Below, piece by piece: positions 35,216 to 38,374 of a stretch of DNA of 64,000 bases. The notes beneath the pieces were generated by a model, which worked only from the letters and a program-made list of their open reading frames with translations, was not told the DNA's origin and made no database searches. This DNA comes from Candidatus Saccharimonadota bacterium. Its GTDB lineage: Bacteria > Patescibacteriota > Saccharimonadia > Saccharimonadales > Saccharimonadaceae. How positions within the stretch are numbered: position 1 is the first letter of the stretch; every line of letters begins with the position of its first letter. A program made the translations under genes and the position numbers. The stretch covers positions 186,001 to 250,000 of the forward strand of contig JAFWHN010000001.1 of assembly GCA_017515205.1 (NCBI GenBank), given 5' to 3'.

Positions 35216-37501
35216 TTATACTACAAAATTCAATAGCTTTGCTTTTTTCACGAAAATCGTCTTTTTAATGCCATCTTTGGTGTATTTTTTAATCTTATCT
35301 AAACCAAGCGCCACATCAATGATTTTTTGTTCATCGTCTAAATCTTCAGTATTCACCTTCAAATTAGCCCGCAGTTTACCATTCACCTGTACAATTACTT
35401 CAACAGTGTCCGAGGACAAATATTTCTCATCCCACTTCGGCCACTCATCATCGGCCCCCAATTTTTCCAACATCTCTGAAGCAAGGTGTGGTGCAAAGGG
35501 TTTCAGCAATTTCGCAAGCACAATTAAGTCTTCCTTTGTTGCTCCATTTTTATACAGTTCATTCACATATTCCATCAGTGCAGCTACCGCTGTATTGAAT
35601 TGACACTTATAAATATCAGAAGTTACCTTTTTGACAGTCTTATTGCGAATGACAAGATTTTTATCTGTTTTAACGACATCATCAAGCAAATTCCAGCATC
35701 GATTGAGAAAACGATACACCCCACCAACGCTTCTCGGATCCCAAGCCGCGTCTAATTCCACCGGCCCGATAAACATCTCATAGGTGCGTAATGTATCCGC
35801 TCCATAACCATCGTTAATCACATCTAGCGGGTCAATTACATTCCCCTTAGATTTGCTCATTTTCTTGCCATCAGGCGCATTAATATAACCATGATAAATC
35901 AACTTTTTAATTGGCTCCCTAAACGGTAAGTAACCCTGATCTGCAAAGAATTTGCACCAAAAACGAATATAAAGTAAATGCGCCACTGCGTGATCTGCAC
36001 CCACATACACATCAGTTGGCTCCCAATACTTAATCGCTTCAGGATCCCACGCCGCTTTTTTGTCGTGAGGTGAAGCATAACGCCACAAATACCACGAAGA
36101 ACAAGCATAGCCATCCAGTGTATCGGTCTCACGCGTCATTTCTTCCATATGAGTCTCACCAGTCTTTGGATCTTTTACTGGCAACTTCACTTTTAACCAA
36201 TCCTTCGCCTTGGCAAGCGCCGAACGTCCCGATTTATCTGGTTTATAGTCCTTTATCTCTGGCAACAATACTGGCAACTGGTCTTCTGGGATTGCATGTG
36301 GGTTACCCTCTTTATCGTAAGCAATCGGAATTGGACAACCCCAATAACGCTGACGACTAATCAGCCAATCGCGCATTCGGTAAGTCGTTTTCAACGTACC
36401 ATAAGCATCACGGTCTACCAACTCCGTCTCCACAATTGGCAGATCAAACTTTTCAGCAAATTCATGATCACGGTCATCCATCGCCGGCACACCCATAATT
36501 GCACCAGTCCCATAGCCGGCTAACACATAATCTGCCACCCAAATTGGAATCTTTTCTTTCGTTGCGGGATTAATTGCATATGCACCAGTAAATACGCCGG
36601 TTTTCTCTTTATTCTCTTGGCGTTCAATCTCCGACTTTTTAATCGCCGCAGCTTTGTAAGCCTCAACCTTGTCCTTTGCATCATCCGAAACGATAAAGTC
36701 AAGCCCAGGATATTCTGGCGCCAATACCAAAAACGTCGCACCCTTAATTGTATCAGGACGAGTAGTAAAGACAGTAATCTTGCGAGAGTCTTGAACAATT
36801 GCAAAGTCAATTTCTGCGCCTACGCTCCGACCAATCCAGTTTCTCTGCATTGTTTTAATCTTCTCGGGCCAATCCAGCGCATCAATATCTTCTAGTAATT
36901 CATCCGCATAATCCGTAATCTTGAAGAACCACTGCTTCATCTTTTTCTTTTCAACTTCATGCCCACACCGCCAGCACTTACCATTTTCCACTTGCTCATT
37001 TGCCAGCACGGTCTGATCTACCGGACACCACCATTGATACGACTCTTTTTGATAAGCCAAACCCTTCTTAAATAACTGCAAAAAGCACCATTGTGTCCAC
37101 TTATAATATTCGGGATCCGAAGTATTAATCTCACGTGTCCAGTCAATCGCATAGCCCAAGCTTTTCGCCTGCTTGCGAAAATTCGCCACGTTTTCCGTCG
37201 TTACTTCTTTCGGCGAACGCCCAGTCTTAATCGCATAATTCTCCGCCGGCAATCCAAAAGTATCATACCCAAACGGCCGCATTACGTTCAACCGTTGTTG
37301 CTCATAAAACCGCGTCAAAACATCTACGATGGTAAAATTTCGCACGTGCCCTACGTGCAAACCTGCCCCCGAAGGATACGGGAACATCTCCGCCACCATC
37401 ATTTTAGGCACATTTGGTTTTTCCGTAGCTTTAAAGGCTTCGGTCTCTTCCCACTTTTTTTGCCATTTTGCTTCAATTTTTAACGGGTCATATCTTTCCA
37501 T
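35216..37501 (-). CDS. leuS: leucyl-tRNA synthetase
   Basis: 761 residues from ATG 37501 (M-E-R-Y-D-P), which lies 7 bases after TGATATAAT; the longer frame to 37558 begins inside or beyond the promoter. HIGH motif in FPYPSGAGLHVGH, zinc knuckle WWCPVDQ..CWRC (second Cys replaced by Asp), CP1 editing domain with TTRPDT and GTGAIMGVPAMDDRD, and KKMSKSKGN. It is about 100 residues shorter than E. coli LeuRS, mainly within CP1. It charges and proofreads tRNA-Leu. Divergent from trmH. Confidence 0.97.
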   Translation of the reverse strand: MERYDPLKIEAKWQKKWEETEAFKATEKPNVPKMMVAEMFPYPSGAGLHVGHVRNFTIVDVLTRFYEQQRLNVMRPFGYDTFGLPAENYAIKTGRSPKEVTTENVANFRKQAKSLGYAIDWTREINTSDPEYYKWTQWCFLQLFKKGLAYQKESYQWWCPVDQTVLANEQVENGKCWRCGHEVEKKKMKQWFFKITDYADELLEDIDALDWPEKIKTMQRNWIGRSVGAEIDFAIVQDSRKITVFTTRPDTIKGATFLVLAPEYPGLDFIVSDDAKDKVEAYKAAAIKKSEIERQENKEKTGVFTGAYAINPATKEKIPIWVADYVLAGYGTGAIMGVPAMDDRDHEFAEKFDLPIVETELVDRDAYGTLKTTYRMRDWLISRQRYWGCPIPIAYDKEGNPHAIPEDQLPVLLPEIKDYKPDKSGRSALAKAKDWLKVKLPVKDPKTGETHMEEMTRETDTLDGYACSSWYLWRYASPHDKKAAWDPEAIKYWEPTDVYVGADHAVAHLLYIRFWCKFFADQGYLPFREPIKKLIYHGYINAPDGKKMSKSKGNVIDPLDVINDGYGADTLRTYEMFIGPVELDAAWDPRSVGGVYRFLNRCWNLLDDVVKTDKNLVIRNKTVKKVTSDIYKCQFNTAVAALMEYVNELYKNGATKEDLIVLAKLLKPFAPHLASEMLEKLGADDEWPKWDEKYLSSDTVEVIVQVNGKLRANLKVNTEDLDDEQKIIDVALGLDKIKKYTKDGIKKTIFVKKAKLLNFVV

Positions 37502-37529
37502 ATCACCAATTATATCATATAATATAGGG
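37502..37529. promoter_or_regulatory. 28-bp bidirectional leaderless promoter between leuS and trmH
   Basis: The entire gap between two divergent start codons. Minus -10 TGATATAAT (box 37509-37514) then TGGTGAT then ATG of leuS. Plus -10 TATAAT (37518-37523) then ATAGGG then ATG of trmH. The boxes are 3 bp apart and each -35 region must lie inside the opposite gene. No ribosome binding site is possible. Confidence 0.75.
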
Positions 37530-38036
37530 ATGAAAATAATTTTGGTGTTGGACAACATCCGTTCGACCTATAACGTCGGAGCCATTTTGCGCACCGCCGA
37601 AGGCTTCGGTGTCTCTAAAGCCATCCTCTCTGGTTACACCCCTAGAGTGCATGATGCCAAATTGTTGCCACATCTCCGCGCCAAATTAGACCACGAAATC
37701 CACAAAACCGCTCTCGGTGCTGAAGATATGCTAGATGTTTATTCATCTGATGATATAATTTCAGACTTGAAAAATCTTAAAAAACAGGGATATCAAATTG
37801 TCGGCCTCGAAAACAATATCCAAAACGTCCCGATTTTCAATTTAAATGACTCTAAGCTGAAGGGCAAATTAAAAGATCAAATTATACTCATCCTAGGGGA
37901 AGAAGTTAATGGCATCAAAAATTCACTCTATGATATAATTGATCTTTTTGTCGAAATCCCCATGCGCGGTCAAAAAGAATCCTTCAACGTTTCCGTCGCC
38001 ACTGGTATCGCAGTTTATGGTATAATGAATCTATGA
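37530..38036 (+). CDS. SpoU/TrmH-family RNA 2'-O-methyltransferase
   Basis: 168 residues from ATG 37530; any earlier start lies within leuS. SPOUT motifs: LDNIRSTYNVGAILRTAEGFG (motif 1), ILGEEVNGI (motif 2), IPMRGQKESFNVSVATGIAVY (motif 3, knotted SAM site). It has no extra N-terminal domain. The family methylates tRNA G18 or 23S rRNA; the target is unknown. Its last codons contain the -10 box of the glutaredoxin gene and its stop overlaps that start (ATGA). Confidence 0.92.
   Translation: MKIILVLDNIRSTYNVGAILRTAEGFGVSKAILSGYTPRVHDAKLLPHLRAKLDHEIHKTALGAEDMLDVYSSDDIISDLKNLKKQGYQIVGLENNIQNVPIFNLNDSKLKGKLKDQIILILGEEVNGIKNSLYDIIDLFVEIPMRGQKESFNVSVATGIAVYGIMNL
38018..38032 (+). promoter_or_regulatory. 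glutaredoxin promoter embedded in the end of trmH
   Basis: TGG TATAAT (box 38021-38026) then GAATCT then the glutaredoxin ATG at 38033. The same bases encode the last trmH residues (V-Y-G-I-M-N-L). Confidence 0.65.
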
Positions 38037-38233
38037 TTAAAGTTTATACAACAACCACTTGTCCTTATTGCCACGCCCTCATGGACTGGCTCGATGAACA
38101 AGGCATCGAATACGAAGAATTAGATGCCACCAAAGAAAAAGGCATTACTTCTGTACCAGTCACTGTAATTGGCGACCAGAAAATCGAAGGCTTTGATCGT
38201 CCCGCCATCAAGCGTGCTCTCAAAAATCTCTAA
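38033..38233 (+). CDS. glutaredoxin-like thiol-disulfide protein
   Basis: 66 residues, shorter than typical glutaredoxins (75-85). The CPYC active site is at residues 10-13; TSVPVTVIGDQKIEGFD holds the cis-Pro and glutathione/substrate-binding GFD. It resembles NrdH/Grx-like redoxins that reduce ribonucleotide reductase or other disulfides. Start overlaps the trmH stop. Confidence 0.92.
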   Translation: MIKVYTTTTCPYCHALMDWLDEQGIEYEELDATKEKGITSVPVTVIGDQKIEGFDRPAIKRALKNL

Positions 38234-38374
38234 AACTTATTAGAACTGCATAAAACACAAAAAGCCAACTTAGTTTCATAAGGTTCTCTCTTTTCCTCCC
38301 TTGACGGTAGTTAGAATAAGTGGTATAATAAAGAAACGGGCGCTTTTTAAAAACTAGAGAGGGGGGAGCAAAAA

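Follow-up and report, generated by a model that had tools for sequence, protein, structure and literature searches.

The 28 bp between leuS and a divergently oriented RNA methyltransferase gene in Candidatus Saccharimonadota very probably hold two separate -10 promoters placed back to back. Judging from sequence, RNA would start on the A of each start codon or no more than one base away, and the arrangement would be a by-product of a genome whose promoters are leaderless and poor in -35 elements. The site is ordinary for its genus, in which versions of 14 to 18 bp are tighter, but through it a class of ultracompact, divergent leaderless promoters came to light that is real and has been little described. 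Coordinates are those of the window, the whole stretch of 64,000 nucleotides that was analysed.

The leuS/trmH intergenic gap

The features of the locus are listed below.

35216..37501, minus strand: leuS, leucyl-tRNA synthetase, 761 aa; open reading frame with ATG at 37501; TIGR00396, E 6e-259
37530..38036, plus strand: gene for a SpoU/TrmH-family RNA 2'-O-methyltransferase ("trmH"), 168 aa; ATG at 37530; PF00588 (SpoU_methylase), E 1e-30
37502..37529, no strand: intergenic gap with both putative core promoters, 28 bp; read directly, with equal length and the same 21-bp core in L145/G202
37518..37523, plus strand: trmH -10 box TATAAT; 6-nt spacer to the ATG, the genome-wide peak spacing
37509..37514, minus strand: leuS -10 box TATAAT; 7-nt spacer to the ATG, the second peak
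37515..37517, minus strand: TGA, extended -10 element of leuS (TATGATATAAT); base pair 37516 is G on the leuS strand
37495..37500, plus strand: weak -35-like TTTCCA for trmH, 17-bp spacer; overlaps the leuS start codon; not above chance
37531..37536, minus strand: weak -35-like TTTTCA for leuS, 16-bp spacer; overlaps the trmH start codon; not above chance
37530, plus strand: predicted trmH transcription start (A of the ATG), the 7th base past the -10 box
37501..37502, minus strand: predicted leuS transcription start (A of the ATG or one base earlier), the 7th to 8th base past the -10 box

The leuS gene begins with MERYDPLKIEAKWQK on the minus strand, and its N-terminus, MERYDPLKIE, is kept in relatives. 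The plus-strand gene begins with MKIILVLDNIRSTYN. Its protein passed none of the NCBIfam equivalog cut-offs (TrmH, 47 bits against 227; RlmB, the best match, 92.6 against 160). Since it matches PF00588 but falls short of these cut-offs, trmH is used here as a loose name.

The gap reads ATCACCAATTATATCATATAATATAGGG. A preliminary description of this DNA had placed the two start codons 28 bp apart, with two head-to-head -10 boxes separated by 3 bp, and both statements are exact. The boxes are perfect TATAAT hexamers that do not overlap, and the bases between them are TCA. Because the boxes are just 3 bp apart, TG is present in a single direction: base pair 37516, which is G on the leuS strand, is C on the plus strand, so the trmH side reads TCA and its promoter, TATCATATAAT, is without TG. 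The two -35-like hexamers each match at 4/6 positions, and 2 were found where 1.3 were expected. No other promoter site scored within positions 37300-37800.

Two observations concern the genes themselves. The leuS product has 761 aa, compared with open frames of mostly 800-990 codons in family relatives (window positions 35216-36500). At the far end of trmH (38034-38300), a frame with an ATG at about 38034 overlaps the end of the gene and has its own TATAAT-N6 upstream; it is similar to the glutaredoxin-like start (MIKVYTTPTCIYCHALMD) that lies opposite trmH in a relative's locus, L272.

Predicted leaderless promoters across the genome

The genome has 650 kb at 40.6% GC, of which 645 kb were scanned, and the same genome read backwards served as the control. 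TATAAT-N6-ATG was found 112 times compared to 8 times in the control, and TATAAT-N7-ATG 50 times compared to 12; the remaining spacings gave 7-29. A perfect box lies 6-7 nt before 130 of the 594 long open reading frames, as against 10 with a box at 12-13 nt. This leaderless architecture, with the -10 box adjoining the start codon, is used in the genome beyond chance. Both leuS and trmH fit it, with boxes 7 and 6 nt ahead of their start codons.

The 134 perfect leaderless promoters of this genome gave the consensus TRTGNTATAAT. Relative to the box, T is found at -5 in 77%, T at -3 in 82% and G at -2 in 81% of them, and their -35 region shows at most a weak preference. In sigma-A promoters with an extended -10 (TGN or TRTGN), the -35 element is largely dispensable. 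Because the promoters here are of the extended -10 type, a -35 hexamer is not needed. The preliminary description had held that the upstream half of either promoter has to be located in the neighbour's coding sequence, a requirement that falls away with promoters of this type, with a -35 signal that is weak at most and -35-like hexamers at chance level. We also rejected the idea that pairs of -35-dependent promoters are the norm in this genome.

Across 145 genomes sampled from the phylum, this genus had the strongest N6 signal: its two members gave 112 and 124 matches, and no other genome exceeded 55. A -10-like hexamer was present 6-12 nt before the leuS ATG in all 28 of the other family genomes read, whatever the upstream neighbour, and at 6-8 nt in members of the genus. 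Position and conservation make leaderless initiation at leuS and trmH a well-supported prediction.

Conservation of the gap and changes in gene order

The host genus comprises gut Candidatus Saccharibacteria, many from ruminants, and relatives were collected by protein searches with both genes (170 genus genomes). The nearest relative found was isolate RGIG5840 from sheep jejunum (L145, apparently one genome with G202). It keeps the 28-bp gap, both boxes and both spacings. The 21-bp core, CAATTATATCATATAATATAG, is identical, and all differences are in the outer bases. Conservation of the gap in related genomes, which the preliminary description had proposed as a check, is thus borne out in this relative.

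Counting this one, at least 13 of the 170 genus genomes have a head-to-head leuS and trmH no more than 60 bp apart; the gaps measure 19, 22, 28, 35, 37, 46, 50 and 56 bp. These coordinates were read by eye, and the start in G251 was shifted by eye one codon upstream. A perfect -10 box was seen for leuS in 12 of the 13 and for trmH in 9, and trmH in relatives often starts with MEL or MEI. The distance between the boxes ranges from overlapping to more than 10 bp. In the roomier head-to-head relatives, TG is present on most sides. The other head-to-head relatives carry a separate, mostly TG-extended trmH box at 6 nt.

Other neighbours of trmH provided a comparison. Where leuS and trmH are in tandem with a junction of at most 25 bp, a trmH box was present in 0 of 7 distinct junctions. 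Where trmH is head-to-head with tsaC (TIGR00057-like, slightly under the cut-off), TATCAT lies 6-7 nt from trmH in 18 of 19 loci; some loci represent one species twice. The trmH box is kept when the gene faces divergently and lost in tandem and, therefore, is present when needed and absent when not. With the genome-wide spacing peak and the family-conserved leuS boxes, this upholds the earlier reading of the gap as two promoters, both leaderless by position.

The tsaC/trmH gap itself is about 23 bp, and its -10 boxes overlap in most loci (ATTATATCAT; L105-L108, L146, L148, L149, L152). The two directions share -10 bases there, and their predicted starts are separated by about 23 bp. A hairpin element was also noticed in the leuS-trmH gaps of G262 (L223) and G164 (L224). 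Its centre, CGCTCC[AG]GGGCGCTAGCCCAAGTCTTA, is constant, whereas the sequence of its long arms differs between copies. The hairpin core has 27 copies in 17 of the 170 genus genomes (examples are L261-L270) and none in the window's genome, and the hairpin from the two relatives' gaps had no match in Rfam.

A common gene order in the genus is a tandem leuS-trmH-nusB-nudix-rnc. Other arrangements were trmH before leuS in tandem, tsaC between the two, trmH divergent with tsaC, leuS and trmH head-to-head, and the two genes unlinked. Outside the genus, leuS-trmH adjacency was not found in the relatives examined.

These arrangements bear on whether the gap is a dedicated regulatory coupling, in which initiation at leuS and at the methyltransferase gene exclude each other and a seesaw has evolved that sets tRNA charging against RNA methylation. 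The polymerase footprints must overlap, because the -10 boxes are 3 bp apart, and the recurrence of the head-to-head pair in at least 13 genomes would also fit such a coupling. However, the same genus has the genes in tandem in either order, or trmH facing tsaC, and they are not neighbours outside it. The variable inter-box distance also speaks against a seesaw, as does the finding that bidirectional promoters of basal strength in E. coli did not compete (PMC12825309). A conserved seesaw would hardly be expected to tolerate these changes of arrangement, and we regard this explanation as improbable. The link between the tRNA synthetase and the methyltransferase drawn in the preliminary description is not supported, given the same lability of pairing and orientation. 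A conserved leuS-trmH coupling was rejected, as order, orientation and partner vary within the genus.

Another possible explanation is that leuS, with its extended -10, has the sole real promoter. The plus-strand TATAAT would then come from AT-rich pseudo-symmetry, and trmH would be transcribed from elsewhere with a leader. The trmH box without TG and the AT-rich, nearly symmetric gap agree with this. We nevertheless find it unlikely, since the plus-strand box sits exactly at the genome-wide spacing peak and is kept in G202. Moreover, the separate trmH box of the other head-to-head relatives and its loss in tandem operons are both at odds with a promoter for leuS alone. AT-rich DNA readily yields TATAAT, but it is extremely improbable that the matches in this gap are meaningless, and a chance origin of the double box was rejected as contradicted by conservation of the core and by the controls: first-order random sequences matching the gap in composition had both boxes rightly placed at a frequency of 2.8e-4, and 9 double-box sites were found over gaps of 12-60 bp in the genome compared to 0 in the reversed genome. 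Of the 152 CAT-N28-ATG places in the genome, one has both boxes, and it is the leuS/trmH site.

Tighter divergent promoters in the genus

The preliminary description had placed the site near the limit of compactness for a divergent promoter, a statement overtaken by a 16-bp case in the same genome and many 14-bp cases in the genus. The 16-bp case separates dnaG from a gene for a 204-aa membrane protein (G000:C6:43532-43549, locus L231). Its boxes overlap in a shared palindromic -10 (TATAATTATA; also written ATGCTATAATTATAAC). This gene pair has a gap of 14-18 bp in 13 of the 20 genus loci in which both starts were read (of 30 loci).

Of 394 family genomes, 62 contained a palindromic 14-bp divergent site, CATNNTATAATTATANNATG, also written CATGCTATAATTATAGCATG; almost all of them belong to this genus, and the control sequence occurred in none. 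Among the 30 sites examined (L271-L300), 26 lie between two head-to-head open reading frames of at least 60 codons. The pair of dnaG and the membrane protein gene recurs at these sites, and one site has trmH facing a glutaredoxin-like gene. From N-terminal sequence, we take further pairs to be ung with tdk or tmk, tpiA with a HAD gene, a Mur ligase-like gene with tsaE, and galE with a glycosyltransferase gene. Most of the 14-bp sites read CATG...CATG, so that one gene's start codon and the other's extended -10 overlap.

We lean towards the view that this genus uses a class of ultracompact, bidirectional and leaderless promoters, where the start codon on one side doubles as part of the promoter for the other. 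The extreme form would be the 20-bp palindrome CATGNTATAATTATANCATG, in which 14 bp separate the start codons and CATG serves at once as an ATG and as the TG for the extended -10 facing the other way. The 28-bp leuS/trmH site would be a relaxed, non-overlapping member, its direction set by the shared base pair 37516.

Proposed mechanism and significance

In the two-promoter reading that we prefer, sigma-A RNA polymerase would recognise TATGATATAAT for leuS or TATCATATAAT for the methyltransferase gene and then melt the box. Leaderless mRNAs would start in opposite directions, and they would probably be translated from the 5'-terminal AUG. Base pair 37516 could complete a TG element in one direction only. 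Because it is G on the leuS strand, leuS is predicted to be the stronger side, and trmH may be weak because its box is without the TG common to most leaderless promoters here. Simultaneous occupancy of both sides by polymerase should be impossible, which is physically plausible from the geometry of the site and the size of the polymerase. At ordinary promoter strength, this exclusion would probably be of little consequence. Leaderless, -35-poor promoters throughout the genome would let genes join head-to-head with almost no intergenic DNA, and the arrangement is probably a by-product of such promoters and not a dedicated control circuit for leuS and the methyltransferase gene.

If the start sites are confirmed, these promoters would be near the lower size limit for divergent expression of two protein genes, with promoter, leader and ribosome site all collapsed into 14-28 bp. 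With them one could test how RNA polymerase selects its orientation where two promoters have bases in common, and how leaderless translation shapes the compaction of genomes in the Candidate Phyla Radiation. The -10 box would also allow gene starts in these genomes to be predicted.

Comparison with known systems

In the open-licence literature searched, we found no start mapping, leaderless-promoter or promoter-analysis papers on Saccharibacteria or the Candidate Phyla Radiation, and no 5' end mapping for this organism. The promoters of this genome resemble other extended -10 sigma-A promoters in their TRTGNTATAAT consensus, but here the start codon forms the downstream boundary of the promoter.

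Genes without a leader whose -10 box adjoins the open reading frame have been described before, as the available passages of two papers show (Zheng 2011, PMC3160421; Deinococcus-Thermus 2025, PMC12340547). As in those passages, the first T of the -10 box lies about 12 bp before the start codon, there is no leader, and the architecture is common in the genome. In contrast, the box here is a near-consensus TATAAT and is usually TG-extended. The same passages contain no description of a head-to-head pair of leaderless promoters such as the one found here.

The closest comparison is with the bidirectional promoters of Warman, Grainger and colleagues, which share one -10 element and have starts mostly 18, but also 10 or 23, bp apart (PMC12825309). 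Five such promoters in E. coli were too weak to compete at the basal level, and activation of one side could repress the other (PMC12825309). Like these, the leuS/trmH site would be transcribed in both directions from a short, AT-rich stretch to which polymerase cannot bind both ways simultaneously. Unlike them, it has separate boxes (37509-37514 and 37518-37523), and its predicted starts are 28-29 bp apart. Because the boxes are separate, the site is outside that class and would count, in those authors' terms, as separate divergent promoters. The dnaG site of this genome and the tsaC-trmH sites of relatives do share -10 bases, as the promoters of that class do. In its working, the leuS/trmH site would resemble two divergent promoters that overlap.
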